Assembly (NCBI RefSeq): GCF_018704125.1 | Contig: NZ_JAGTIS010000007.1 | Coordinates: 62,001-126,000 of the forward strand | Length of the DNA: 64,000 bases | Source: Metapseudomonas boanensis | Lineage (GTDB): Bacteria > Pseudomonadota > Gammaproteobacteria > Pseudomonadales > Pseudomonadaceae | Reading direction: 5' to 3' | Shown here: positions 27,818 to 56,503 of the stretch, piece after piece | Numbering within the stretch: position 1 is the stretch's first letter | How the letters are laid out: each line of letters opens with the position of its first letter | Notes under the pieces: generated by a model | Told to the model about the DNA's origin: nothing | The model's database searches: none | What the model saw: only the letters and a program-made list of their open reading frames with translations | Position numbers and translations under genes: made by a program

Positions 27818-30241
<2,424 letters not shown>

Positions 30242-30310
30242 TTGATGTGTCGACGGGCATATTAATTGTCATGTTCGTGCAAGTTATTGTCATGACAAAA
30301 AGCGTCACTA

Positions 30311-30335
30311 CCCCGGCCTAGCGCCGGGGTTTTTC
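30311..30335 (+). terminator. Rho-independent terminator after gyrB
   Basis: Stem CCCCGGC (30311-30317) with GCCGGGG (30323-30329) followed by five T. It ends the dnaA-gyrB unit and marks the left border of the accessory region. Confidence 0.93.
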
Positions 30336-30582
30336 TTTATGGGCCAATGCTTTAGGGATCGCTGTGCATTACAGCAGGAGCTCGTTCTGTAGTGAACCTA
30401 CACGGAAGGCCCGGATAATCTCGTTTTTTGGGAGGTGAAAACTTAGGAGGTTTGAGAGGGAGATGCTGGCGGGTAAATTGGGTCAATCGAAGCAGCATCA
30501 CCCATCAGCTGCTTAGAATCACCGCTGATGGGTGGGCCAGTGCGACCCGCTTGCGGATTCATTTAACCGAACCGCATGCTGA

Positions 30583-30678
30583 GCCACCCTGCCACCCTGC
30601 CACCCTGCCACCCTGCCACCCTGCCACCCTGCCACCCTGCCACCCTGCCACCCTGCCACCCTGCCACCCTGCCACCCT
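30583..30678. repeat. Perfect tandem repeat, 12 copies of GCCACCCT
   Basis: Twelve uninterrupted identical 8-bp units, 96 bases in all. It lies in the 695-base gap between gyrB and hsdM. A frame running through it (30428-30721) would encode a Pro/Cys/His-rich peptide with no support as a gene. Eight bases is not a multiple of three, so loss or gain of units shifts every frame. Such arrays typically arise by polymerase slippage. Confidence 0.97.
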
Positions 30679-30760
30679 GCTGGAGGCGGGCAAAGTTATT
30701 TGCCGTTTCGGCCAGAGTTAAGCGTTTAGGACGAAGCTAATAGCCCACTGCCCTGTCAAC

Positions 30761-30936: not shown

Positions 30937-32547
30937 ATGGCTGACAAGCTGTCACTCGAAACGCTGGAGTCCTGGCTCTGGGAATCCGCGAACATTCTGC
31001 GCGGTTCCATCGACTCCTCTGACTTCAAGAACTACATCTTCGGCCTGCTCTTCCTCAAACGTTACAACGACGTGTTCGATGAGCGTGTCGCTAAGCTGAT
31101 GAACGACGAAAGCCTGAGCTATGGCGATGCTCAGGAAGAAGTCGAGGACAAATGGGGCAAATTCCCTATCAGTGCCCGCTGGTTCGATCTGATCTCACGC
31201 ACCGAGAACATTGGCGAAGCCCTGGACAAGGCGTTCGCGACCATCGAGGCCAACAATCCTGAGCTGCAACATGTACTGACGGCTACTCAGTACGGCGACA
31301 AGCGGGTGCTGGCGGACGCCACCTTGCAGCGTCTGCTGCGTCACTTCAACCAGTACAAGCTGGGCAATGACGACCTTTACAAGGCCGACATGCTGGGCGA
31401 TGCGTACGAGTATCTGATCAAGCAGTTTGCCGACGACGCCGGTAAGAAAGGCGGCGAGTTCTATACGCCCAAGGCTGTGGTACAACTGGTGGTTGAGTTA
31501 ATCGACCCGCAGCCCGGCCATAGCGTGTATGACCCCACCTGTGGCAGTGGTGGCATGCTGGTGGAGAGCGCTCACCATGTATCTGGTCTGCCCAATGGCA
31601 CCTTGATGGGTAAACCCAATGTGCTGTTGTACGGGCAGGAAAAGAACTTGGGCACCTGGGCTATCGCCAAGCTCAATCTTTACCTGCACAACATGCACGC
31701 TGCCATTGAGCGCGGCGACACCCTGGTGGAGCCTAAGCACCTCGACGGCGACTATCTGAAGACCTTCGACCGGGTGATCGCCAACCCACCATTCTCGGCC
31801 AAGTCCTGGTGGACTCCGCTGGAGTTAAGCAACGAGAACGAGCAGGAGAATGGCAAGAAGGCTAAAGCGCCCAACTACAAGCAGGTCAGTGACCCTTACG
31901 GTCGACTGGTCTATGGCATCCCGCCACGGGGCTATGCCGACCTCGCCTTTGCTCAGCATATGCTGGCCAGCCTTAAGGCAGATGGTCGCATGGGGGTTAT
32001 CCTGCCGCACGGTGTACTGTTCCGTAGCGGCGAGGAGGGCAAGATTCGTGAGGGGCTGCTGTTCGGTACTGACGCTGCTAGCGGCAACCAGCCTGGTGAT
32101 CTGATTGAAGCCATTGTCGGCCTGCCCTCTGCTCTGTTCTACAACACCGGTATCCCGGCCTGTGTGTTGATACTCAATAAGCAGAAACCTGCTGCTCTGA
32201 AGGGCAAGGTCATCATCATCGATGCCAGCCGTGACTACTTGGAAGGCAAGGCGCAAAACAGCCTTCGCGTTGAAGATATCACCCGCATCGTTAGTACCCA
32301 CAAGGCCGCATTTGAGCAGCAAGTCGAGGTCGAGAGCTATTGCCGGGTCGTGACGCTGGACGAAATCCGTAGCAACGACGGTAACCTCAACATCGCTCGC
32401 TATATCGACAATGGTGAAACAGAAGAGTCCATCGATGTAGCTGCAACCTTGGCACAACTAGCAGAACTGGATGAGGAAGAAGCTCAGATAGATGTACGAC
32501 TCAGTGGCTATCTGGTTGAGTTGGGGTTGCTGGAGGCCGAGGCATGA
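30937..32547 (+). CDS. hsdM: Type I restriction-modification system, DNA methyltransferase subunit
   Basis: 536 residues. SAM-binding motif I 'DPTCGSGGM' at 199-207 and the adenine-N6 catalytic motif N283-P-P-F identify the gamma-class HsdM. The N-terminal helical domain 'LESWLWESANILRGSIDSSD' is usual for the family. With HsdS it methylates adenines in a bipartite target and protects host DNA. Its stop overlaps the hsdS start (ATGA). Confidence 0.97.
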   Translation: MADKLSLETLESWLWESANILRGSIDSSDFKNYIFGLLFLKRYNDVFDERVAKLMNDESLSYGDAQEEVEDKWGKFPISARWFDLISRTENIGEALDKAFATIEANNPELQHVLTATQYGDKRVLADATLQRLLRHFNQYKLGNDDLYKADMLGDAYEYLIKQFADDAGKKGGEFYTPKAVVQLVVELIDPQPGHSVYDPTCGSGGMLVESAHHVSGLPNGTLMGKPNVLLYGQEKNLGTWAIAKLNLYLHNMHAAIERGDTLVEPKHLDGDYLKTFDRVIANPPFSAKSWWTPLELSNENEQENGKKAKAPNYKQVSDPYGRLVYGIPPRGYADLAFAQHMLASLKADGRMGVILPHGVLFRSGEEGKIREGLLFGTDAASGNQPGDLIEAIVGLPSALFYNTGIPACVLILNKQKPAALKGKVIIIDASRDYLEGKAQNSLRVEDITRIVSTHKAAFEQQVEVESYCRVVTLDEIRSNDGNLNIARYIDNGETEESIDVAATLAQLAELDEEEAQIDVRLSGYLVELGLLEAEA

Positions 32548-33776
32548 GTTTAGTTGGTAAGCACGGATACAAAGAAACGGCTGTCGGTTGGGTGCCAGAA
32601 GACTGGAGATGTGAACAACTGGGAGGCTACCTAACCCTTCTGACCGGCGCACCATTCAAGTCTGAGCTTTTCTCATCGGATGGGGGCATTCCGCTAATTC
32701 GTATCCGTGATTTGCTGCGAGGCTTCAGCGAAACAGGTTATGTAGGCGAATACGACGACCGATACCTCGTAAATGCTGGGGACGTATTGGTCGGCATGGA
32801 CGGCGAATTCCATGTTGTGCGATGGAAAGGCTCACCGGCACTCTTGAATCAGCGAGTTTTAAAGATTTCAGAGAAGCCAGGGCATTCAGATGTAGGTTTC
32901 CTTTTTTTCCTCGTTGCCAGTGTTATAGGAAAGATACAGGACGGTATTTCGGCGACAACGGTTAAGCACCTGTCCACCAAGGACTTACAGAACCTAACCG
33001 CAGCAATTCCCCCGCTTCCCGAACAGCAAAAAATCGCCGCCGTTCTCACAGCTGTTGACGGCAAGCTGGACGTGATTGCCCGCCAGATTGAAGCCACCCA
33101 GGCCCTCAAGCAGGGTCTGATGCAAACCCTGTTCAGCCAGGGCGTTGCTAATTGGCCCTCGGTTTCGTTACAGGAGGTTGCGGAAGTTCGTACTGGTGTT
33201 GCGAAAGGCAAAAAGGGGCTGAAGGAACCTATCGAACTGCCGTACCTGCGGGTTGCCAATGTGCAGGATGGGCATATCGACCTCACTGAGGTAAAGACCA
33301 TTACGGTGGAAGCGGCCCAAGTTGGGCGGTATGCGCTTCAGTCTGGTGATGTACTGATGACCGAAGGTGGGGATTTCGACAAGCTAGGCCGTGGGGATGT
33401 TTGGGAGGGACAGATATCCCCTTGTCTTCATCAGAATCACGTCTTTGCTGTACGACCAGCTCCCTCCAAACTGAATTCCTATTACCTTGCGGCGTTAGCC
33501 GCAAGTGATTATGGCCGCCAGTATTTTCTCTCGTGCGCTAAGCGTACTACGAATCTAGCTAGCATCAACTCATCCCAGTTAAAGGCCTTTCCGGTGCTTT
33601 TGCCACCTCTGGATGAGCAAGTACGGATTGCCGATATTGTGGCTGCCGCCAATGCTCGCATTGAAATACTGAGCACGAAAAAGGCCCACTACCAAACCCT
33701 CAAGCGAGGCCTGATGAAAAAACTGTTAACCGGCGAATGGCGGGTCAAGCTCGATAGCCCTACCGGTACAGCCTGA
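32544..33776 (+). CDS. hsdS: Type I restriction-modification system, specificity subunit
   Basis: 410 residues with two target-recognition domains, each followed by a conserved helix: 'PPLPEQQKIAAVLTAVDGKL' (about 154-173) and 'PPLDEQVRIADIVAAANARI' (about 354-373). The repeat of these spacers is the HsdS signature. It dictates the DNA sequence recognised by the complex; the sequence cannot be predicted here. Coupled to hsdM by a four-base overlap; its GC content is lower in the first recognition domain, as often seen for exchanged domains. Confidence 0.95.
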   Translation: MSLVGKHGYKETAVGWVPEDWRCEQLGGYLTLLTGAPFKSELFSSDGGIPLIRIRDLLRGFSETGYVGEYDDRYLVNAGDVLVGMDGEFHVVRWKGSPALLNQRVLKISEKPGHSDVGFLFFLVASVIGKIQDGISATTVKHLSTKDLQNLTAAIPPLPEQQKIAAVLTAVDGKLDVIARQIEATQALKQGLMQTLFSQGVANWPSVSLQEVAEVRTGVAKGKKGLKEPIELPYLRVANVQDGHIDLTEVKTITVEAAQVGRYALQSGDVLMTEGGDFDKLGRGDVWEGQISPCLHQNHVFAVRPAPSKLNSYYLAALAASDYGRQYFLSCAKRTTNLASINSSQLKAFPVLLPPLDEQVRIADIVAAANARIEILSTKKAHYQTLKRGLMKKLLTGEWRVKLDSPTGTA

Positions 33777-33786
33777 GTCTTTCTTC

Positions 33787-34677
33787 ATGGACGAAATCAC
33801 CCCCCTGCCCTCGGAACCGGTACCTGACCTTCAGCGTACCGTGCAGCGCAAGCTTGGGCGCTGCATGTTGCAGTTGCAGCAGTACGAGCGGCTGCTCAAG
33901 GCCATGGTGGCCCATAGCGAGCTAAGCGGCCCAGCGGAACGACTTCAGGAACTCCGTGACGAGAAGGTCGCCTGTGCCCATAAGAAAACCCTGGGCACTT
34001 TGGTCGGGATGCTGACCGAGAGCTATCTGAAGCTGCCGGACTTGCCTGATACGCAGGATCAACCCGAAGCCGATAATGGCGACCGGATGTGGTTTAGCTT
34101 TCGGTATCAAATGGAGTTACCCGAAGAGCGCTACGTCGAGACCAAGGCTGCGCTCAAGGAGTTGGTCGACCTGCGCAATGAGTTGGTGCACCACTTCCTT
34201 CAGCGCTTCGACCTTTGGGCCGTGGATGGCTGTGTAGCCGCCGAGACATATCTCGATGAGAGTTACGAAACCATCCACGGCCACTACCTGACGTTACGCG
34301 ACTGGGCCAAATCCATGGATGAGGCTCGACAGCTAATGGTTTCGTTCATGCAAACCAAAGAGTACGAGGATGCTGTTTTGAACGGCATCTGGGTCGATGG
34401 CACCGTACACTGGCCCAGCAGCGGGATAACGGCCTGCTTGCGTGAAGCGGAAACCAAGCTCGCTCAGGCGGGGTGGACACCTCTGTTCGAGGCCATTCAC
34501 TGGATTGCCAAGACCTACCCCGAGCAGACGCCCAAACGCTATGGCTGTGGCAGTTGGCGTCATGTCATCCATGAGTCGCAGCAGTTTGAAATTCGTAAGC
34601 AAAGCCAAGCCGATAATGGCGCTACGGTGGTTTGGTATCGCAGTCGGCCGAGGGAAACCTCCAAGGAACAGGAGTAA
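33787..34677 (+). CDS. OST-HTH/LOTUS-domain protein within the hsd operon
   Basis: 296 residues. The N-terminal ~190 residues are helical and charged, without a family I can name. The C-terminal ~75 residues ('CLREAETKLAQAGWTPLFEA', 'YGCGSWRHVIHESQQFEI', 'VVWYRSRP') resemble the OST-HTH/LOTUS winged-helix domain, which binds RNA (G-quadruplex RNA in studied cases). It lies 10 bases after hsdS and 3 bases before hsdR, so it is an integral operon member, perhaps controlling or sensing for the restriction complex. The domain call comes from pattern recognition and needs a profile search. Confidence 0.65.
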   Translation: MDEITPLPSEPVPDLQRTVQRKLGRCMLQLQQYERLLKAMVAHSELSGPAERLQELRDEKVACAHKKTLGTLVGMLTESYLKLPDLPDTQDQPEADNGDRMWFSFRYQMELPEERYVETKAALKELVDLRNELVHHFLQRFDLWAVDGCVAAETYLDESYETIHGHYLTLRDWAKSMDEARQLMVSFMQTKEYEDAVLNGIWVDGTVHWPSSGITACLREAETKLAQAGWTPLFEAIHWIAKTYPEQTPKRYGCGSWRHVIHESQQFEIRKQSQADNGATVVWYRSRPRETSKEQE

Positions 34678-34680
34678 GCA

Positions 34681-37600
34681 ATGAGCCAGTCACCGGAGAA
34701 GGTCGGGGTCGAGCTGCCCGCCATCAATTGGCTGATCAAGTTGGGCTACACCCATCTGCCCGGTAACCAGGTGCAGGTTGAGCATCGTCACCTGGCACCG
34801 GTACTGGATGATGTATTGCAGGCTCGGTTGCTGACCCTCAACCCATGGCTGAAGACTGCACCCGGTGGCATCAGTGCCGCACTGATCGAGCTACGCAAGC
34901 GCGTCAACGATGAGCTGTTGCCCGCCAACAAGGCGTTCTGGGAACAGGTGGTTCACCGTTCGGATATCCAGGTGAAGGATGTCGAAGGCAAGCCGCGCAG
35001 TGTGCGCTTCTTCGACGCCAGCGATGCCAGCAACAATGACTTCCATGTGGTCGATCAGTACGTGGGGCGCAATGCGGATGGGGATGTTTTCCGCCCTGAC
35101 CTGCTGCTGTTTGTGAATGGCTTGCCGCTGGCCATCATCGAATGCAAAGCCAGCCATCACCGCCTGGATGAAGCCCTGGGGCAATTGGATGGCTACCAAA
35201 GCACCTTCCCAACCCAGTTTGTCTTCAACCAGGTCTGTGTTGGGCTGAATCGGCGTGAAGGACTATATGGCGCGATACTGACCAAGCCAGCGTATTACGC
35301 CCGCTATCGGTTGCAGGGACAGGAGACTGCTGCTGTTGCTGCCCTATTAGGCGAGGCGCCGAGTGAGCAGGAGAGCCTGCTGTGGGCCCTGTTCGAGCCG
35401 AACCGCTTCCTGCAACTGATCACTCATTTTGTGCTGTTCGAAACCCGCGACGGCAAGACGGTGAAGAAGCTGCCGCGCTATCAACAATGGCGGGCCGTGC
35501 GCAAAACGGTGGGTCGCCTGTGCGCGCCGAAGCCCATGGGCGGTGTTGTCTGGCATACCCAGGGTAGCGGCAAATCACTGACCATGGCCCTGCTCGCGCG
35601 CATGCTGCGTGCCGATAGCACGGGGCTGAACAACCCTACCGTGCTGGTACTGACCGACCGCAAAGACCTCGATAAGCAGATCTTCGATACCTTCCATGCG
35701 GTGGGCATCCATGCCATTCAGGCTGTGTCGGTTGATGGCTTGGTGAAGATGTTGTCCAACGACTACGGCAGCGTATTTACCAGCACGGTGCAGAAGTTTC
35801 AGGAGAACGATCAGCCCGGTGAACAGGCCGCCGAGACACCTGACGAAGAAGATGACCTGCAAGCGACTCGCCATCGGCGTGTTCGTGAGGACAAGGACTT
35901 CTTCATCGTGCATGAGCGCAACGTTCGCCACCTGGCGGTGGATGAGAACGGTGCGCCGGTGAAGGCCCAGTGGGAAGAGATCAGCCGGGAGAAGGTGCAC
36001 TTCCGCGTGCTGAGTACCAAGCCCAATTTCTATGTGCTGGTCGACGAAGCTCACCGCAGCCAGTACGACTTCCTCGCAGCCTTTATGCGCGCCAGTTTGC
36101 CCAACGCCAAGTTCATCGCCTTCACCGGTACGCCGCTGCTGCAAGAAGACAAACACACGCTGGGCGAGTTTGGTGGTGGCGAGTACATCGACGAATACCG
36201 CCTGCATGAAGCGGTGGCGGATGGTGCCACCCTACCGATCAAATACCACGATGCCTGGGTGGCGCTGTCGGCCAATGCTGAGTTGGATGCCGCGTTCCAA
36301 GAGCAGTTCGCCGACCAGAGTGAGGTTCGCCAGCACGAGTTAAAGCGTGAACTGCTGCGCCGCTGGCGTCAGGCCGGTGACCGCATGGAACAGGTCGCGG
36401 AACATCTAGTCGAGCATTTCCTCAGTAACGTAAAAGCCAAGGGCTTGAAGGCCATGCTGGTGTGCGATGGCCGCGACATGGCGGTACGCTACAAGGATCT
36501 GCTCGATGCGATCATGGTCGAGCGGGCGCAAACAGGGCTGCCAACCTTTGACAGCCAGGTAGTTATTTCCCTGGCCAGCATCACCTCTTCCCGTACCGGG
36601 GCTTCTGCCATGGAAGAGGCGGCAGAGTACGAGATCGAGGCCGACAAGATCCGCAGCATCGAGGAGCGGGTGAAGGCCGAGGTGAAAGCCGGAAAGATCC
36701 CGGTGGCCATGCCATCCGAGCAGATCGGCAACTTTGTCAGCAAGCTGTTTCCCCTGCCCTACGGGGAAGAAAGTAAGGGGCTCGATGGTAAGCCGCAGGC
36801 GAACAACGTCGGGCTGATCATCGTTTCCGACATGCTGCTGACCGGGTGGGATGCCCCGATTGTCGGCACCATGTACCTCGACAAGCCGCTTAAGGAACAC
36901 ACCCTGTTGCAGGCCATCGCGCGGGTGAACCGTACCCTGCCCGGCAAGAATGCCGGTTACATCGTGGATTACCACGGGGTGGTTGAGCACCTTGACCATG
37001 CGCTGAAGATTTATGGCGGCGACGTGAAGCCTTCCCAGGTCTGGGAAGGTGTTGAAACCGAACTGCCCAAACTGCAAGCCACACTCGACCGCATCCTCAA
37101 GCTGCTGCCGAAAAAGCATGACCCGGTGGCGCAGCGCGAGGCCTACAAAGACGACGCCGAGCGTTTCCTTGACCCCGCCACCCGGTTGGACATGGTCGAA
37201 GAATTCCTCGACCTGGTGAAGCAGTTCAACCGCTCGGTGGACATCATCCTGCCGGATGTCCGTGGAGTACCTTTCAAGCCCTTTTTCACCCTGCTAGGTG
37301 AGATTCGCCTGATGCTGCGCGACAAGCTTCCGGGCAGTGCCTACAAGGAACGCATCACCAAACTGGAGTCCGCGCTGCTGCAACAGCTGCTGGATGAGTA
37401 CATCGCTGCCAGTCCGGCCAAGAGCCTGCTGGGCCACGAGGTATCGATTCTGGATGCCAGTGATATGGAGCGTTTAAAGAAGCTGGCGAGCCCAGGTAGT
37501 CGCGCCCTGGTGATGAAAAACCAGCTGAAGCAGACCATCGTCACCGGCAAGGACAAGGATCCGGCATTCTTCGACAAGATAGCCGAGGAGCTGGAAAAGC

Positions 37601-37962
37601 TGCTGGAAGAGGAAAAGGCGGGTCGCATTACCCAAGCCAAGTTCCTGGAGCAACTGGAGCTGTTCAGCCAGCGGATTCAGGACAAGGACAACACCGGGTT
37701 TAATAAGCCAGCGCACTCAGCGGTGTACCACTATCTTGCTGCCCTACTGGCTGAGGACACGGCCAGAGTGGCTACGACCAAGCTGTTCGAAGATGAAATG
37801 CTGAGTCGTGCGCTGGCGACTGAAAACTGGAAGAAAATGCCGGATACGCACCCTGATTTTAGAGACCACCTGCGCGGGGTATTGATGCCTCTGGCGGGCT
37901 GGGAGCGTTCAGTGGCGCGTGATCACGCTAAGCGAATCTTCGATATCCTGCTGAAAAACTGA
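34681..37962 (+). CDS. hsdR: Type I restriction-modification system, restriction/translocase subunit
   Basis: 1093 residues, normal for HsdR. N-terminal PD-(D/E)xK nuclease: D140 in 'FRPDLLLF', E154-C-K156 in 'LAIIECKAS'. SF2 translocase with Walker A 'QGSGKS' (294-299), DEAH box at 455-458, 'FTGTPLL', and motif VI '[11 protein letters not shown]'. An acidic insertion ('[14 protein letters not shown]') lies between motifs I and II. It translocates and cleaves unmodified DNA. All motifs are intact, so the system appears functional. Confidence 0.97.
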
Positions 37963-42124: not shown

Positions 42125-42599
42125 CAGGACTCCATGGCAGTGTGGTCACCACTTTCTGGCACGGCGCCGATCTGTCGGCGGCTCAGCCGGGTTATGTTCG
42201 CGCTGGCGTGGATCAACTTGGTGGCTGGTTGGGCGTCCAAAGGTACGAATGGAGTAGCACGACTCGCTCCCAGCCCCAAATCGTCTGCCAACACCTTGCC
42301 CTTCTCCGTGGGCGTCGCGCTAGCCGGCATGGGCCCAAGCAAAGGTAGATTGGCTGGATCCCCTGCTCAAGACGCCGGATGAATTGCTGATTCAGCAGAT
42401 TGAGCTCCCGCCTGGGAGCGACGGCGGGTGATCCAATCCGGAAGCCCACCCGTTGCGATGGTCGTTTCGCCGCCGGTGTTACGGGGCGTCTACTTTTCCG
42501 TAGCAGCTCGGGTCGGATGGGAACAAAAACCAGCGTGCGTGGCTTGTAGTGTCGACGTTGAATTTTGTTAAGGTTTGAAAAATATGTATTTTTTATTTT
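42125..42599. other. Gene-free segment upstream of the small RNA promoter
   Basis: No convincing gene. An imperfect inverted pair TGTTAC (42477-42482) and GTAGCA (42500-42505), 17 bases apart, resembles the TGTTAC/GTAACA type of site reported for the activator CbrB, and lies 120-150 bases before the predicted RNA start, a normal distance for a sigma-54 activator. From 42555 to 42600 the DNA is very AT-rich. Confidence 0.4.
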
Positions 42600-42615
42600 T
42601 GGCATGAACTGTGCT
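42600..42615 (+). promoter_or_regulatory. Sigma-54 (RpoN) -24/-12 promoter
   Basis: TTGGCATG-N4-GTGCT: GG at 42601-42602 and GC at 42613-42614 are separated by exactly 10 bases, the defining -24/-12 spacing. It agrees with the consensus TGGCACG-N4-TTGC except for two positions. Predicted RNA start at 42625/42626. Confidence 0.8.
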
Positions 42616-42624
42616 TAATCGGTT

Positions 42625-42970
42625 GCACAACAAAAACAATAGCCACAAAAACACTTCGACTCTGGCACAACAAGAACAAGACGACAGAGCGGAAGCAAAC
42701 CGATTTTTTTGGAGAGGGTGTGCCGTTTCCGGCCCCGGCGACCAGCGCAACAGAATAAAACTACCTGAAGGTAGCGCCTGCACTGGTTGGTTCAGTACAT
42801 GACAATGGCAAGGCCAGCGTCCAAAAAAATCTGTTTGCCTTCGACCCAACGTCGGGTCGGCTAAGACTGGCGCAATGCGCCCGGTCGCTAAAAACAACAA
42901 CAGATCGATAGAAGAACAACAACACACGCAATGATCTTGGGAGGGGAGCTACGGCTCCCCTCTGTGCTTT
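42625..42970 (+). ncRNA. Putative CrcZ/CrcY-family small RNA (Hfq/Crc sponge)
   Basis: About 345 bases, non-coding. It starts GCACAACAAAAACAAT, close to the start I remember for CrcZ. Five A-rich AAnAAnAA motifs, the known Hfq/Crc-binding element, lie in unpaired stretches at 42629-42636, 42669-42676, 42893-42900, 42912-42919 and 42915-42922. Several short hairpins sit in the middle (for example 42759-42772), and a 9-bp stem (42941-42949 with 42954-42962, TACG loop) forms the 3' end. A sigma-54 promoter precedes it, as in known crcZ/crcY genes activated by CbrB. Such RNAs sequester Hfq and relieve carbon catabolite repression. The presence in an accessory region is unusual. Confidence 0.75.
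42941..42970 (+). terminator. Terminator hairpin of the small RNA
   Basis: GAGGGGAGC / GCTCCCCTC perfect 9-bp stem with a TACG tetraloop, followed by a moderately T-rich tail (TGTGCTTT). Confidence 0.8.
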
Positions 42971-43004
42971 CTGCTGCCCCTGCTTTCTGCGGAGTGCTGC
43001 CCGT

Positions 43005-44168
43005 ATGCAAGACCAGTACGACCGAGCTCTATTACTCAAGGAAGTTTGGTCTGAGCCTTTGAGCGTGGTTGCCACTCGATACGGCCTATCTGACGTGGGC
43101 CTTAAAAAGCTGTGTTCCAGGTTGCAGATTCCAACCCCTTTGCGCGGCCATTGGGCAAAACTCAGGGCTGGAAAGCGAGTCGCCGGTACTCCAACCTTGA
43201 GGGACTACACGGGCCTGCCAATCCACCTGCTCAAGCCGAAAGAGCCGCAGCCGGCTACATTAGGCCGCTCAATTCAAAGCAGCGCGCCTGAGGTTCCCCG
43301 TCTTCAAGCAATTCTCGAGTACGAGCAACATCCTGATCATCGAATCGTAGTACCCCAAAGCCTGCGAAATCCCCATGTCCTAGTGGTTAAGACGCAAAAG
43401 GCCTTGGCTGATCCATACCTGGATCAACGCGACTTTCCCAGGCCCCATGGCGAGGCCTTGGATCTTCGGGTTTCCAAGGCGATGCAACCCCGAGCGCTCC
43501 GCGTCGCGGACACTTTGATCAAGGCGCTTGAAAACCGGGGCTATCCAATCACGGTCGAAAGGAAGGCTACCCATGTCGGCATCCTAGGTATTCAGATCCA
43601 GCTGACGTTTTTTGAGTCCGCGCGACGTTCCAAGTACCAGCCGACCGAGCAGCAGCTGAAGAAACTGGCGCGCGACGAATGGGTGCGAATCCCCGATTGG
43701 CAGTACCACCCGACTGGGCTGCTCCAGGTGCTGGTCGACGAGGGATATGGAGGAAAGGTCACTGACTCCACCAAAGCAACTGTTGAGGAACAACTCAATC
43801 AGGTGATCTGTGACGTCGCTCGCCGGGCCGTGCATTTCTTAGTGAGTCGCGAACAGCAAGCCATCGCCGAGGCTGAGCGCCAACGCAGGCGCGACGCTGC
43901 ATTGGCTCAGAAGGCGATGCAGGAGGCTGAGCGCAAACGACTGCTTGGCCTTTTGAAACAGGCCCGGCAATGGGAGCGGGCCTGTTTGCTACGTCGGTAC
44001 CTTGATGAGGTTGAGCAGACCTGGCGTCGGCACGGTCAACTGACCCCAGATCAGCTGGATCACCTGAGCTGGGGGCGGGCAAAAGCCGACTGGGTCGACC
44101 CCTTTACTGAGGCTGCTGATGAATGGCTGGACAAGGTGATCGAGGTACCGAGTCGATATTCGTGGTGA
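43005..44168 (+). CDS. Conserved hypothetical protein with N-terminal HTH-like segment
   Basis: 387 residues, no family I can name. The first ~60 residues ('VWSEPLSVVATRYGLSDVGL', then 'KLCSRLQIPTP..GHWAKL') look like a homeodomain-like helix-turn-helix. A middle part of mixed alpha/beta (about 150-260) is followed by a long basic coiled-coil (about 285-335, 'EQQAIAEAERQRRRDAALAQ'). It follows the small RNA by ~35 bases but has its own start. It could be a DNA-binding protein of the island; nothing more specific is supported. Confidence 0.75.
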   Translation: MQDQYDRALLLKEVWSEPLSVVATRYGLSDVGLKKLCSRLQIPTPLRGHWAKLRAGKRVAGTPTLRDYTGLPIHLLKPKEPQPATLGRSIQSSAPEVPRLQAILEYEQHPDHRIVVPQSLRNPHVLVVKTQKALADPYLDQRDFPRPHGEALDLRVSKAMQPRALRVADTLIKALENRGYPITVERKATHVGILGIQIQLTFFESARRSKYQPTEQQLKKLARDEWVRIPDWQYHPTGLLQVLVDEGYGGKVTDSTKATVEEQLNQVICDVARRAVHFLVSREQQAIAEAERQRRRDAALAQKAMQEAERKRLLGLLKQARQWERACLLRRYLDEVEQTWRRHGQLTPDQLDHLSWGRAKADWVDPFTEAADEWLDKVIEVPSRYSW

Positions 44169-50996: not shown

Positions 50997-51713
50997 ATGC
51001 ATCGCGGTCTTCAGCCTGTTCCTGTGGCACGCAACGTCTCGAAGCGCACCCGTCGTGGCAAGGCGTGTTACGTGTTCATGTCTGCCAAGGCGGGCGGACT
51101 GATCTCGCTGGAGAGCTATGAAGAGCTGAGGCGCGCGTTGTTGTTCGAGATTGACCCACGGGTTGTGCGGTTCGGCGAGCAACCCTGGACGATGGAGGTG
51201 CTCAGCGGCGAGATTCAGCCGTCTCGTGAGCATTTCAAACCAACGTCGGCTGATCGTGTGTTCTACACGCCGGATTTCACGGTGCGGCTAGCTGATGGCC
51301 GCATTCTGATTATCGAAGTGAAGAAGTCCTCCCCTTCTTCTGAGCTCACCGACAAGTACACGCTGGCGCAGCGCCAGTGTCAGCAGCACGGTTTTGAGTT
51401 CAGGGTGCTGGAGGGTGGCCAGATCACGGATGTACTTGTCCGAAACTGTGAATATCTGACGAGAACCTCGGCTGAGTACTTCAAGAAGCACCTACCTGCA
51501 ACGCTTGAGCAGTTGGTGGAACTGTCGCACCAGAAGCCGCAGTGGAAGTTCTCGGAACTGGCGGATAAAGCGCCGTACGGCGGCTTTGGCGTGTTTGTCG
51601 GTATCGCAAATGGTGTCTTTCAAGCAGATCTAAATGCCGATCTGCTGGCGGGGCGAGGGGAAATCACTCCTGCACATGGAAACCTTACTCATCTAGAGGT
51701 GGGGTTTGTATGA
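50997..51713 (+). CDS. tnsA: Tn7-like transposase endonuclease subunit TnsA
   Basis: 238 residues. The restriction-enzyme-like core has an acid in 'LISLESYEELRRAL' (E39/E42/E43), D93 in 'FYTPDFTV' and E107-V-K109 in 'IIEVKKS', equivalent to the catalytic set of TnsA. TnsA cuts the 5' strands at transposon ends so that TnsA+TnsB give cut-and-paste movement. Its stop overlaps tnsB (ATGA). Together with tnsB, tnsC and tniQ it forms a complete core operon. Confidence 0.93.
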   Translation: MHRGLQPVPVARNVSKRTRRGKACYVFMSAKAGGLISLESYEELRRALLFEIDPRVVRFGEQPWTMEVLSGEIQPSREHFKPTSADRVFYTPDFTVRLADGRILIIEVKKSSPSSELTDKYTLAQRQCQQHGFEFRVLEGGQITDVLVRNCEYLTRTSAEYFKKHLPATLEQLVELSHQKPQWKFSELADKAPYGGFGVFVGIANGVFQADLNADLLAGRGEITPAHGNLTHLEVGFV

Positions 51714-53620
51714 ACAACCGGCTGATCCAGAAGGGCGACCTGGTTGAAGACAACGGCCAGCTGTTCAATGTCCACGACATTCGCTTGCAGACCGACCAGG
51801 TCTTGCTGGAAGGGCGTGCAGGGAATCTCGTGTTCTACGGTGTGGGTGAGTTCAACAACCGTATCGCGCAGGGTGTTACCAAGCCGATCTTTTCGCGACG
51901 GGCTGCGAATGAGGAAGCGCCGACCAGGGAACTTTCTCTGACCGAGGAGGCCGCGCTCAAAGTTCGTTTGGACGTGCTTTCTAAAGTCAAAAGCCTGCGC
52001 GAGAACGGTGTGCCCTGGCAAGACATCGGGCCCATGCTGGGGAAACAGATACCGAATATCCGAACAATTCAGCGCTGGTATGCGAAGTATGAACGCGTCG
52101 TTAATAAGCAGCATGTTGCGCCGCTCTATTCAGCGCGGGGGAATCGCGGCTCAAAGCTGTCGGAGGTGTCGGAGCAAGCGCTTCAAGAGGCCCTGCTTGA
52201 GTTTTACAAAGGCACCGAACGCTTCAGCATTCAGTCGATCACAGAACTGGCGAACGCCAGAGCCAAAGATATCTGCGCGGAGCTGAAACTGCCCTTTACT
52301 GGCATTTCCAGGCGTTCGGTTACGCGAGCAATTTACAAAATTGGTAATTTGGAGTCGGTGCAAGGCCGCTTGGGGACAAGAGCGGCCAATCAAACTTTGC
52401 ATGCGGCGCTAGAGCTGTTGCTTATCGAGGCGCCCTACGAGCGCGTCGAGTATGACTCGACAGTTTTGAACGTGCATCTGGTTAACGACCAGGGTGAGGT
52501 CATCGGTAAACCTACGCTTTACCTGCTGATTGACTGTGCCACCGGCGCCATCATTGCGTTCTATCTGACCATTCAAGCGGAATCCGAGGAAGCATTTCTG
52601 CGCTTGCTTGAAATGGCGTTTATGCCGAGAGACGACGGTTTCTTGCAGCGCTACGGCGTCAAGCATGCCCTCCCGGCGCCGGCGCTATGGCACAAGATGG
52701 GTGGTGATAACAGCGCGGCCCATCACGGGCAAGGCATGTATCACGCATTGTGGTATCTCGGGGTGGCTAATGAGTTTTCGCAGGCGGGTAAACCGCAGAA
52801 ACATCCCTATGTAGAGCGCACGCACGGCTCCAGTAAGACCGGCCTGATCAAAAAACTGTGCGGGGCCAATTTGTCGGAAGAAGTTCTGGAGAAAGACCCT
52901 GAAGGGCGTGCTCTGCGCGAAGCTGCATTGACGTTGCCGCAATTGGAAAAGTTGGTGGCACGGTGGATCTGTGATGTTTATATGAACAGGCCCCTGGCGC
53001 GTCTGACATATCGCTTTGGGTACCGCTGCTCTCCCCGACAAGCCATGGATGCGCTGACGAAAATTTACCCGTTGGTACCCCCGCCAACCCCCGAAGAGTT
53101 TCGGGAGGCCTGCCTGCAATATCGCAGCAAGAAAGTTTCCCTGACCAGCAAGGGCGTCGTGTTCGACACGTTCCACTACAACAGCCAGGAGCTCTATGAG
53201 CTGTTCCTGGCGGCGCCGCGAAAATCTAAGGTCGAGATTCGTTGGCATCCCCTGGATGTCAGCGCCATTTCGGTCGTGTCGCCACTGGATCAGAAGGTCA
53301 TGATCACGGTGCCGAACAAGCTGCGTAATCTGCCGCCGATGAGCTTTGGTGAGGCGAAGCAGATTCGCCGCAAGCTCTACAAGTCAGATGCCGAGTTGAC
53401 CGAGGAGGATTATCACCAAGCTGCCGTGGAACTCTATCGAGACATCCATGCACTGAACAAAGCGGCCACGGTCGCCAAGCGCAAGCGGGCGGCCAGGGCG
53501 TCGGACAAGCAGCTCCAAACGAAAGCGCTTCAGGCGACCAAGCCAGTCCATAAGGCCGAGGCTGACGCGCCTGCAACCCTAGACTTGCAGGCGCTCACGC
53601 CTGTACCGACGCGCAAGTGA
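51710..53620 (+). CDS. tnsB: Tn7-like DDE transposase TnsB
   Basis: 636 residues, Mu/Tn7/IS481-like integrase fold. Catalytic triad D249 ('VEYDST'), D333 ('GGDNSA') and E369 ('YVERTHGS'), with a 35-residue spacing between the last two as usual for DDE enzymes. N-terminal helix-turn-helix domains bind the transposon ends; a basic C-terminal tail (from about 585) probably contacts TnsC. Intact. Confidence 0.95.
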   Translation: MNNRLIQKGDLVEDNGQLFNVHDIRLQTDQVLLEGRAGNLVFYGVGEFNNRIAQGVTKPIFSRRAANEEAPTRELSLTEEAALKVRLDVLSKVKSLRENGVPWQDIGPMLGKQIPNIRTIQRWYAKYERVVNKQHVAPLYSARGNRGSKLSEVSEQALQEALLEFYKGTERFSIQSITELANARAKDICAELKLPFTGISRRSVTRAIYKIGNLESVQGRLGTRAANQTLHAALELLLIEAPYERVEYDSTVLNVHLVNDQGEVIGKPTLYLLIDCATGAIIAFYLTIQAESEEAFLRLLEMAFMPRDDGFLQRYGVKHALPAPALWHKMGGDNSAAHHGQGMYHALWYLGVANEFSQAGKPQKHPYVERTHGSSKTGLIKKLCGANLSEEVLEKDPEGRALREAALTLPQLEKLVARWICDVYMNRPLARLTYRFGYRCSPRQAMDALTKIYPLVPPPTPEEFREACLQYRSKKVSLTSKGVVFDTFHYNSQELYELFLAAPRKSKVEIRWHPLDVSAISVVSPLDQKVMITVPNKLRNLPPMSFGEAKQIRRKLYKSDAELTEEDYHQAAVELYRDIHALNKAATVAKRKRAARASDKQLQTKALQATKPVHKAEADAPATLDLQALTPVPTRK

Positions 53621-53630
53621 GGTGATCCGG

Positions 53631-54623
53631 ATGTTTCAGCCACTCTCTACAGAGCGCGTGATGCACCAGCAGTTCCAAATGGCGTATGACTTTGCGCGAG
53701 GCATCGTCGCAAGGTCTATCGACGGTGAGCGTCTGATTGCTCTTCTGCTGGGCATCCCCCGGCTGGGGAAATCTCTGGTCAGCGACTTGTTGTTGGAGGA
53801 CTTTCCAGCGCAATCAGTACACGGTCAGCAATCGATTCCCATCATTCGTGTCGTAACGCCGACCAGTCCGACTAAAAAATCCATGGCGGAGGCCATCATC
53901 GACACGCTGGACTCGCGTCGTTATGGCCGGTTCAGCGCTGATCAGGCCACTGCACGGGCTATGTTTCTGTTGGAGAGAGCCCAGGTACGTATCCTGCTCT
54001 TCGATGAAATCCAGCATGTGGTCGAGCGCAATACCTCCAAGAGTTGGTACGAGATTGCCGACTGGCTCAAGGTCTTGTCAGATAAGCTCAATTTGTCACT
54101 GCTGTTGATCGGTTTGCCGAAAGCCCGTGAAATTTTTTCGGAGAACGATCAACTGCGGACTCGTGTCAGACCAGCTCACATTATTTATCCCTACAACTGG
54201 AACCAGCCGGGCGACATCGCGGAGTTTTGCCGCTGCCTTCTTTCCGTATCTCAGTTGCTCTCCAAGCAGGGGTACGAGCTACCCAACATGACTGACCTTG
54301 ACGTTGTCCGACGCTGCTATGCGGCTACCGATGGGCGTTACGGCATGGTGATCAAGCTGTTCGAGGAGGCCAGGCATCTGGCTAAGAAAGCGAAGTCCAA
54401 GATCATTACCCGAAACACCCTGCACGATGCATATCAAGCGAGTATTGCTGCCGATGGAGATACGAGGAATCCATTTGCGTCTGATGCTGAGCTCAGCGAC
54501 AGCGTTCTGGTACAGCGTTATGTTGCCGTGTTGAATGAAGCTGGATTGCGGGCGGCGCGCCCAAAACGAGGTCAGAAAAGCGCACCGGGGATGGCTGCCC
54601 ACGCTGATGGGGGGAGCCAGTGA
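53631..54623 (+). CDS. tnsC: Tn7-like AAA+ regulator TnsC
   Basis: 330 residues from ATG 53631 with GAGGTGA 5 bases upstream; a GTG 9 bases earlier is possible. Walker A 'GIPRLGKS' (41-48), Walker B 'ILLFDEIQH' (D125, E126), sensor-type 'LLLIGLPKA'. TnsC filaments link the target-site protein to the transposase and give target immunity. Its stop overlaps the next start (TGATG). Confidence 0.93.
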   Translation: MFQPLSTERVMHQQFQMAYDFARGIVARSIDGERLIALLLGIPRLGKSLVSDLLLEDFPAQSVHGQQSIPIIRVVTPTSPTKKSMAEAIIDTLDSRRYGRFSADQATARAMFLLERAQVRILLFDEIQHVVERNTSKSWYEIADWLKVLSDKLNLSLLLIGLPKAREIFSENDQLRTRVRPAHIIYPYNWNQPGDIAEFCRCLLSVSQLLSKQGYELPNMTDLDVVRRCYAATDGRYGMVIKLFEEARHLAKKAKSKIITRNTLHDAYQASIAADGDTRNPFASDAELSDSVLVQRYVAVLNEAGLRAARPKRGQKSAPGMAAHADGGSQ

Positions 54624-56503
54624 TGATGCAGATTCATCTGAATCCCTTTGCTGGTGAAGCGCTGCATAGCTACCTGCTCCGCCTGGCGCAAGGCTACGGT
54701 CTTCAGAACAGCAAACAGCTGCTGAAAGCGGTGAGCCTGAAGCCTCGTCTTGCTTATGACGCACAACAGCTCGGGTTGTTTGCCGAGGAGTTCAGACTGA
54801 GCGTCGATGTACTGGTGGCGATGAACCCGACACCCGAGTCCAGCACGCCGATTCTGAACCTGAAGCATCAGCGCTCAGCCGGCAGTCCGATTTGCCCCTG
54901 CTGCGTACGTGAGGCTCCTTATATTCGAGCCCTGTGGGATCACGAGCTGATCACGGCGTGCCCGCTGCATGGCGTGCTCCTGATGGATGTATGTCCAGGC
55001 TGTAGCGAGCCCATTACGCGCGAGCGTGAGTCGATCACCCATTGCCAGCATTGCAACCGCTCCTTCTCCGAAACCGTTGCGGAGTCAGCTGAGAGCTACG
55101 ACCTGGCCCTTTCTGCGTTGATTGCTGGAGCAGCGCATCCGGCTAGAGCACTGCTCCCCATGGCTTTGCAGTCCGGCAGCCCGCCTCCGGACATCGCGGC
55201 TTTCCTGGCCTACCTCGCGACCCATATTCAACCGGCCAACTCGATACCTGTTCGAGCTGGCAAGGAGCCGCGTCCTAAAACGATCCAGGAGTCTCGCGGT
55301 GTGTTGAGGCGTGCTTGGTCAGCGCTCACGCCGTGGCCGACAGGCGTTGAGGCATTCATTGAAGCACGCATTCGCGAAGGCGAGGGTCGTTCCGTGCATC
55401 AGCGCGTAGGGCGTTGGCTGGCGATATTTCAGCGGCAGTTTGATCCGAAGGTCTATGGCTTTTTTGCTGAAGTGGTCGAGCGTGTTTTGCATGAACGCTT
55501 TGATGGGAGCTTTGCTCTTAGACATAGGGGAATGTTGCTCAGATCGGAAAACGCCGATGCTTTGCAATGGTTTTCAGCCGCTGAGGCGGCGCGATTGCTT
55601 GGCATCGCTCCCGATATCCTGACCAACCTAGTGGTCAAGCAGAAGGTTCCCGGGCGAGTGCACCAAGAGGGCAGTAACCGTTTCGTTGCAATTCACCGCG
55701 AGACGATTGACCAGATTAAGGAACACCGTGGTGGCTATCTTTCCGCCACCGATGCGCGACGTCGGCTGAACATTTCAAAGACGTGTTTCGAGCGCTTTAC
55801 CCAAGCCGGTGGGCTGCGTCGCTACAAGCGCGATGAGCGTCCACTGCTGGTAGCCGGCGAATTCCGGGTCGAGGACGTCGACAAGGTGATCAACCAACTA
55901 GTGGGACGCGTCCGCAAGAAGCCTCGGCCATCCCGGTTGATCGGGCTTGAAGACATCTCGGCCAAGCACGGAATTTCTAACGCCAAGATCATATCGGTGC
56001 TGCAAGACATTCTGCACGGGACGATCTGTCCCGTTGCCCATGTGACAGAGCTGTCTGGGCTGGCTGGGCTTCAGTTCGACAAGGCCGATATCGAGACGTG
56101 CATCCGGGACAGCGACCCAGATGCTTCGTTCAGTGTTGACGATTTGGCGAAGGTGTCCGGCTGGAAAGCAGGTGTGATCAAAAAATGGATCCAAGGAGGT
56201 TTCCTCCGAGCGGTTGAAGAGCGCCATGGGAAAGCCAAGCGCGACGTCGTGCAGCTATCAGCCCTGATCAAGTTTCTGCTGACCTACACCCCGACTGCCG
56301 AGCTCTCCAGTCAACTGAACACGAAAACCCAGTACCTGATTCAGTCCTGGCGTCCTGCCCAGATCGAGATCCTGACACCGCCGCAAGACACGAGTGGTGG
56401 GCAGCGAGGCTTGCTCGTCCGAAATGCCGATCTGGCGCGGGCCGCTCAGCTCCGGAAACCGACAATCCGCGAGCTTGCAGAGCAGCTAGGGGCGTGCGCA
56501 TGA
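54623..56503 (+). CDS. tniQ: Tn7-like target-selection protein TniQ/TnsD
   Basis: 626 residues from ATG 54623 after GGGGGAG. N-terminal TniQ domain ('LHSYLLRLAQGYGLQ') with zinc ligands in 'PICPCCVREAPYIRALW', 'ACPLHG', 'CPGC' and 'CQHC'. The long C-terminal half contains several helix-turn-helix-like segments ('SAAEAARLLGIAPDILTNLV', 'LSATDARRRLNISKTCFERF', 'SVDDLAKVSGWKAGVIKKWI'), as in TnsD proteins that recognise a fixed chromosomal site. The target site is unknown; glmS is not excluded but its attTn7 here is empty. Confidence 0.9.
   Translation: MMQIHLNPFAGEALHSYLLRLAQGYGLQNSKQLLKAVSLKPRLAYDAQQLGLFAEEFRLSVDVLVAMNPTPESSTPILNLKHQRSAGSPICPCCVREAPYIRALWDHELITACPLHGVLLMDVCPGCSEPITRERESITHCQHCNRSFSETVAESAESYDLALSALIAGAAHPARALLPMALQSGSPPPDIAAFLAYLATHIQPANSIPVRAGKEPRPKTIQESRGVLRRAWSALTPWPTGVEAFIEARIREGEGRSVHQRVGRWLAIFQRQFDPKVYGFFAEVVERVLHERFDGSFALRHRGMLLRSENADALQWFSAAEAARLLGIAPDILTNLVVKQKVPGRVHQEGSNRFVAIHRETIDQIKEHRGGYLSATDARRRLNISKTCFERFTQAGGLRRYKRDERPLLVAGEFRVEDVDKVINQLVGRVRKKPRPSRLIGLEDISAKHGISNAKIISVLQDILHGTICPVAHVTELSGLAGLQFDKADIETCIRDSDPDASFSVDDLAKVSGWKAGVIKKWIQGGFLRAVEERHGKAKRDVVQLSALIKFLLTYTPTAELSSQLNTKTQYLIQSWRPAQIEILTPPQDTSGGQRGLLVRNADLARAAQLRKPTIRELAEQLGACA

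Follow-up and report, generated by a model that had tools for sequence, protein, structure and literature searches.

Introduction

The closest described systems to the locus analysed here are the small RNA CrcZ (Rfam RF01675; Pseudomonas aeruginosa, P. putida and Azotobacter), with CrcX and CrcY of the same family, and the Tn7-like transposons. In related bacteria, such an RNA lifts the brake on second-choice foods. The usual gene order is cbrA-cbrB-crcZ-pcnB and, to our knowledge, descriptions of CrcZ-type RNAs place them at chromosomal loci of their own; small RNAs regulating an ISPpu9 transposase have reportedly been studied. The crcZ promoter of P. aeruginosa is RpoN-dependent and is switched on by CbrB, and the A-rich motifs of CrcZ bind the distal face of Hfq, the RNA titrating Hfq as a decoy (PMC4063720). 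In P. putida, a CbrB target comprises a forward subsite and two reverse ones, set 20-25 bp from one another (PMC6296734). Tn7-like transposons combine tnsABC with a TniQ/TnsD protein (PMC8649781, PMC10293859). Their marks are the gene order tnsA-tnsB-tnsC-tniQ, inverted ends bearing repeats and a 5-bp target-site duplication. The main text of PMC10293859 mentions neither gyrB, gyrase nor sRNA, and that of PMC8649781, a large survey of Tn7-like cargo in which non-coding RNA was annotated with Rfam, mentions none of these nor CrcZ, which its supplements might list.

Here we analysed a 64,000-nucleotide stretch of Metapseudomonas boanensis DNA (hereafter the window, on contig C63); unless stated otherwise, coordinates are those of the window and features lie on the + strand. 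Its RNA resembles CrcZ in an end-to-end match to the family model, a putative sigma-54 promoter, CbrB-type subsites, A-rich motifs and a 3' hairpin. Unlike CrcZ, it does not lie behind cbrB, is carried by a Tn7-like element and holds four strict A-rich motifs, compared with six in the 12 aligned crcZ rows; it is 52.1% identical to the crcZ of its own host in an alignment that includes upstream DNA. Its likeness to CrcX and CrcY is that in the trees it groups with copies behind gyrB and away from crcZ, weakly so in one tree; it differs in forming, together with one other copy, a deep branch of its own, and the place behind gyrB is held by a different copy. The gyrB-linked copies are called crcX-type below, their equation with the CrcX or CrcY of others being an assumption. 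The element shares the gene order, ends and duplication of Tn7-like transposons, but lies behind gyrB and includes a putative sponge RNA in its cargo. The RNA family is known. Its presence on Tn7-like elements is undescribed as far as the literature was searched, and the open-access literature yielded no description of a transposon-borne CrcZ-type RNA, which is no proof of absence.

A CrcZ-family RNA gene with a putative sigma-54 promoter

An Rfam covariance search gave a full-length match to CrcZ at 42627-42995 (211 bits, E 4.8e-57, model positions 1-398; the RF01675 gathering cut-off is 95 bits). CrcZ was the sole Rfam family above its gathering score within the 64-kb window, and rescoring an 801-base stretch with the CrcZ covariance model again returned 211 bits. 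These data support the assignment of a CrcZ-family RNA gene, named crc-prime, predicted to run from 42625 to the end of a hairpin at 42963. The original prediction, made from the letters of the window, had proposed a CrcZ-like RNA at 42477..42970 with an exactly spaced sigma-54 promoter, an RNA start, an imperfect TGTTAC/GTAGCA pair 120-150 bases upstream, five AAnAAnAA motifs and a terminator hairpin at 42941-42962; each of these was recovered, except that a strict count gave four separate motifs instead of five.

The sigma-54 -24/-12 consensus has a GG and a GC at a canonical 12-base step. The putative promoter of crc-prime (TTGGCATGAACTGTGCT, 42599..42615) has its GG at 42601-42602 and its GC at 42613-42614, a spacing that is exact by inspection. 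The predicted RNA start (GCACAACA, 42625) lies 12 bases behind the GC, the distance expected for this family. Further upstream, three CbrB-like subsites occupy 42477..42525: F1 (TGTTAC, 42477-42482) and R1 (GTAGCA, 42500-42505), about 146 and 122 bases ahead of the RNA start, and an R2-like GGAACA (42520-42525). Centre-to-centre spacings are 23 bp (F1-R1) and 20 bp (R1-R2), within the 20-25 bp range of P. putida CbrB targets, and R1 and R2 each differ by one base from GTAACA. No match to a simple IHF consensus was detected between the CbrB-like sites and the promoter.

The four motifs, of the type bound by the distal face of Hfq, lie at 42629..42639, 42669..42679 (within the loop of a hairpin at 42655-42693), 42890..42900 and 42912..42922, and comprise eight overlapping strict starts (42629/32, 42669/72, 42890/93 and 42912/15). 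Several A-rich motifs are a mark of the CrcZ/CrcY/CrcX family, and at least four were reached by only 3 of 2000 dinucleotide shuffles. The copy found in P. taiwanensis xwS3 (see below) also has four, compared with five to eight in the other 35 aligned copies. The terminator-type hairpin was located at 42940..42963 (-22.9 kcal/mol for a 49-base stretch, z -2.82); the T run after it is weak, as in the other aligned copies. Three + strand frames of at least 20 aa overlap 42600-43000 (63, 25 and 43 aa); the 63-aa frame begins at 42611, ahead of the RNA start, and the 43-aa frame extends beyond the hairpin.

The RNA lies within a Tn7-like element inserted behind gyrB

The 3' part of gyrB was examined (28109..30241; Pfam DNA gyrase B domains including the C terminus; 84.8-87.8% nucleotide identity with 12 relatives). 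Six bases behind its stop codon (30239-30241), an element of 35,871 bp (35.9 kb) begins with TGTCGACGGGCATATTAATTGTC at contig position 92248, window 30248. Its left end (30248..30397) has the inverted end sequence TGTCGACGGGC and two repeats 22 bp apart that resemble TnsB sites. The inverted counterpart, TGTCGACGGGCGATAAACGTGTC, finishes at contig 128118, equivalent to window coordinate 66118 and hence beyond the window. A putative target-site duplication, TGATG, flanks the element at 30243..30247 and, on the right, at contig 128119-128123. The end-repeat motif, derived from the element ends themselves, occurs twice at the left end, twice at the right end and once in the remaining 35.5 kb, four of the five occurrences lying within 350 bp of the two ends. 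Read against the end anatomy of Tn7, the inverted ends, putative repeated TnsB-type sites and 5-bp duplication are those of a Tn7-like element; insertion close behind an essential gene is a further likeness.

The gene content agrees with this assignment: tnsA (50997..51713; PF08722, 36.5 bits), tnsB transposase (51710..53620; PF09299, 23 bits against a cut-off of 21.7, and its place in the operon), tnsC, a TniB-like ATPase (53622..54623; PF05621, 73.8 bits), and a 627-aa tniQ/tnsD-type target selector (54620..56503; PF06527, 54.1 bits, with HTH_17) follow one another. This anatomy bears out the earlier proposal that the RNA sits within an accessory island. Cargo includes a type I restriction-modification cluster at 30937..37962 (hsdM, hsdS, an OST-HTH protein and hsdR), a YgjP-like metallopeptidase, an HTH/M78 protein, an HNH nuclease and a TOTE primase-helicase. 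The protein encoded between hsdS and hsdR (33787-34677) has an OST-HTH/LOTUS domain.

A remnant of a foreign left end, of another type, was found inside the element (contig 92681-92692, from window 30681), and another left-end-like piece lies directly to its right, at contig 128124; because of these two pieces, the history of the element appears to be a patchwork. Right before the foreign remnant, CCACCCTG-type units stand in a short tandem array at 30583-30680.

The host genome has two further CrcZ-family copies at core loci

The host genome is a draft of 5.71 Mb in 65 contigs, in which an Hfq gene is present. It contains three CrcZ-family matches: C22:4570-4969 (334 bits), C63:104627-104995 (the window copy, 211 bits) and C63:129502-129884 (200 bits). 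A separate crcZ at cbrB had been suggested as a check on the prediction that the window copy is extra, and such a gene exists: the C22 copy has a poly(A) polymerase gene on one side and, on the other, first a cbrB-like sigma-54 response regulator and then a sensor kinase, and was taken as crcZ because of this poly(A) polymerase gene and cbrAB-like pair. The third copy, C63:129502-129884, lies between gyrB and an acyltransferase gene, beyond which come a HAD hydrolase gene and glyS-glyQ (the names lptA, for the acyltransferase gene, and gmhB are presumed). The second crc copy of relatives lies in this same place behind gyrB. The window copy therefore occupies neither the place behind cbrB nor the gyrB(-nmad3)-to-acyltransferase interval, and its identity with the ordinary core crcY locus of the species was ruled out, the first place being filled by crcZ and the second by C63:129502-129884. 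Since the host has both of these, the sequence data support crc-prime being an extra, element-borne CrcZ-family RNA. Among 18 genomes of the genus, the host included, three matches were found in two (the host, G000, and G015), two in 12 and one in four.

In 9 of 12 relatives (L039-L050), an Nmad3-family nucleotide-modification gene lies between gyrB and crcX. The host retains a piece of such a gene at C63:128720-128956.

A second carrier has a different element and a conserved RNA

P. taiwanensis xwS3 (G015; contig C62, NZ_QJRF01000069.1) holds an extra copy at 326724, which aligns with the window copy over 649 query bases at 86% identity and likewise lies inside a Tn7-like element. That element (296317-339130) starts five bases behind the gyrB stop and has the target-site duplication CGAAC, and the core copy of xwS3 (340357) lies outside it. 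Its end repeats (two at each end, none elsewhere) are of a different type from those of the window element, and its right end is imperfect, with TGG and 3 of 15 bases unlike its own left end. The tns proteins of the two carriers are 26-29% identical, with the same gene order. Transposase and end families thus differ between the carriers, so that the RNA may not have moved with one defined element. The TOTE primase-helicase gene (C63:123987-126374, from window 61987 past its end) is 91.6% identical between the two elements, compared with 85.9% for gyrB.

We compared the two extra copies along their length. The RNA is identical at 323 of 338 aligned positions (95.6%, five gap columns set aside) and the promoter stretch 42576-42617 at 41 of 42 (97.6%), compared with 48 of 69 (69.6%) in the spacer between the CbrB-like sites and the promoter. 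Across the CbrB-like pair (42477-42506), 24 of 30 bases are the same and all six differences fall between the half-sites. Beyond the shared block, identity drops to about 40% on either side. The crcZ genes of the same two genomes are 94.1% identical in the RNA and 71.7% in upstream DNA; by the same measure, the extra pair gives 95.6% and 77.3%, with gyrB at 85.9%. By these comparisons, the extra RNA is constrained about as tightly as core crcZ, and we take this conservation of RNA and promoter to mean that the RNA has kept its function through most of the period that separates the two copies. The same pattern might in theory result from gene conversion; no near-identical donor was present among the three CrcZ matches of the host genome.

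The extra copies form a clade of their own

In both phylogenetic trees, the window copy and the xwS3 extra copy formed one clade (100/99 and 100/100). The second tree grouped this pair with the gyrB-linked copies, the core copies of the genus and G328b, apart from crcZ (93/92); support for the same split was weak in the first tree (75/29). Joining the pair to the remaining 13 core copies was compatible with the data (p 0.39; in the second tree these 15 rows stood on one side, 65/86), as was placing it with the gyrB-linked copies of another genus (p 0.40). A recent local duplication of the gyrB-linked copy was ruled out: identity between the two C63 copies is 69.8% across 431 bases, and their sister relationship was rejected (AU p 0.0009, for a grouping chosen after seeing the tree).

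The host copy in the core place, C63:129502-129884, stood apart from the remaining 13 in the genus, which formed a 100/100 clade. Its partner in both trees was a copy of a different genus (98/95 and 99/98), on long branches, and one clade uniting all 14 core-place copies, that of the host included, was also compatible with the data (p 0.29).

Distribution of the RNA and of element-like sequences behind gyrB

Among 398 family genomes, with at most two candidates scored per genome, copies of at least 80% identity were found in two, the two carriers. None was found in 25 genomes of another genus, nor among 398 genomes of a further genus, where at most two candidates were again scored per genome and five matched at 70-74%. 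A pattern scan of genome contigs covering 84,980 species returned ten stretches. One was that of xwS3 (86%), eight showed 68-73% identity across 153-374 aligned columns, and the tenth aligned over just 66 columns. The window RNA had no match in plasmids (72,556 records) or phages (50,697), nor in an exact-pattern scan of viral contigs.

Inspected by eye, all eight gyrB ends examined (L144, L146, L097, L145, L147, L095, L133 and L135, chosen for a nearby crc copy) showed a TGT start like that of an element end 5-8 bases behind the gyrB stop. Most of 12 congeners, likewise judged by eye, were without such a start. Repeats spaced by 22 bp at the gyrB site were confirmed by pattern in two genomes (G587 and G170). 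Taken together, these observations suggest that Tn7-like elements insert at the 3' end of gyrB in several genera. For the sequences at the gyrB site in other genera, two simple searches revealed no right ends, for which reason the crc copies there cannot be called cargo. Of nine loci with gyrB-linked crc in other genera, five (L144:7417-9792, L146, L148, L135 and L094/L095) had a TOTE gene or its remnants alongside, and the TOTE gene at such a locus was complete in G707.

Discussion

We favour, with a probability of roughly 0.7, the reading that 42625-42963 encodes an additional Hfq-Crc decoy of the CrcZ/CrcX family, driven by CbrAB and sigma-54, carried on a Tn7-like element and likely to be a captured crcX. 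When carbon is poor, CbrA-CbrB of the host together with sigma-54 would activate the promoter, and the RNA, if expressed, would add a further dose of the decoy that sequesters Hfq-Crc under CbrAB control. Extra decoy dosage is the best explanation because crc-prime has the same parts as the CrcZ of P. aeruginosa. The tnsABC-tniQ element inserted behind gyrB would be the carrier, and capture of the neighbouring crcX gene is the most likely route by which the RNA entered such elements, since these elements insert in the gyrB-to-acyltransferase interval, where crcX also has its home. Expression, sequestration and this route are predictions, as are any present mobility of the element, any benefit to host or element, and any effect on host carbon control.

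That shared interval would also suit a passenger RNA. Recombination between tandem or successive Tn7-like insertions could have swept crcX into the element, where, transcribed or silent, it would have no net effect, crcZ already saturating Hfq-Crc; the patchwork of left-end pieces and the two other crc copies kept by the host fit such a history. We nevertheless regard it as unlikely, because the constraint on RNA and promoter matches that on core crcZ, in contrast to the drifted flanks. A decoy might instead serve the element, releasing transposition or defence genes of the transposon from repression by Hfq-Crc in a starving host. Its carriage beside two different tns sets and the defence-type part of the cargo (type I restriction) speak for this. 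Against it, no Hfq-Crc targets were found inside the element in 70-base stretches around called starts (ORFs of at least 80 aa, longest frame, whose true starts may differ): the sole AAnAAnAA hit belonged to a minus-strand frame that overlaps the promoter of the RNA itself. We hold an element-serving role to be very unlikely. Least credible of all is an assembly artefact, or a core locus read twice. A draft in 65 contigs invites the suspicion, but the two C63 copies, as dissimilar as they are, lie 25 kb apart on one 258-kb contig, and NZ_QJRF01000069.1 holds the same kind of extra copy plus its own core copy.

If the additional decoy is functional, a transposon could raise the dose of the main Hfq-Crc antagonist in one step, shifting the food choice of its recipient and possibly other Hfq-dependent traits too. 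The RNA would stand under a promoter expected to answer the host's own carbon-starvation regulator; as predicted from sequence, a mobile element could in this way plug into the carbon control of its host. A broader proposal is that Tn7-like elements behind gyrB have spread, swapped and lost crcX-type RNAs across Pseudomonadaceae, repeatedly re-tuning catabolite repression. This idea draws on the left-end-like sequences and TOTE cargo beside gyrB-linked crc in three genera, and on the grouping of the host core-place copy with that of another genus, and we hold it to be doubtful at present. Since gyrB would be a Tn7-like insertion site next to a crcX-type locus, capture and spread are directly testable in genome collections.

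The gene that follows crc-prime deserves a comment. It encodes a 387-aa protein (43005..44168), starts about 41 bases behind the hairpin and had no match in Pfam, PADLOC or NCBIfam; matches to its family were found in 9 of 198 family genomes searched, the host included. A fixed partnership of this gene with the RNA was unsupported: in the seven of these nine genomes that are not carriers, the CrcZ-family hits lie away from it, on other contigs (six genomes) or at least about 1 Mb distant (G135), with the reservation that draft assemblies may hide links. Just upstream of the RNA, at 42330..42430, lies the 3' remnant of a second gene of this family. In xwS3 a full gene (C62:325329-326525) occupies this place, and the remnant is identical to its 3' part at 73 of 97 aligned bases (75.3%). 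Members of the family adjoin TOTE and phosphoesterase genes in G159, and two copies are present in the xwS3 element.
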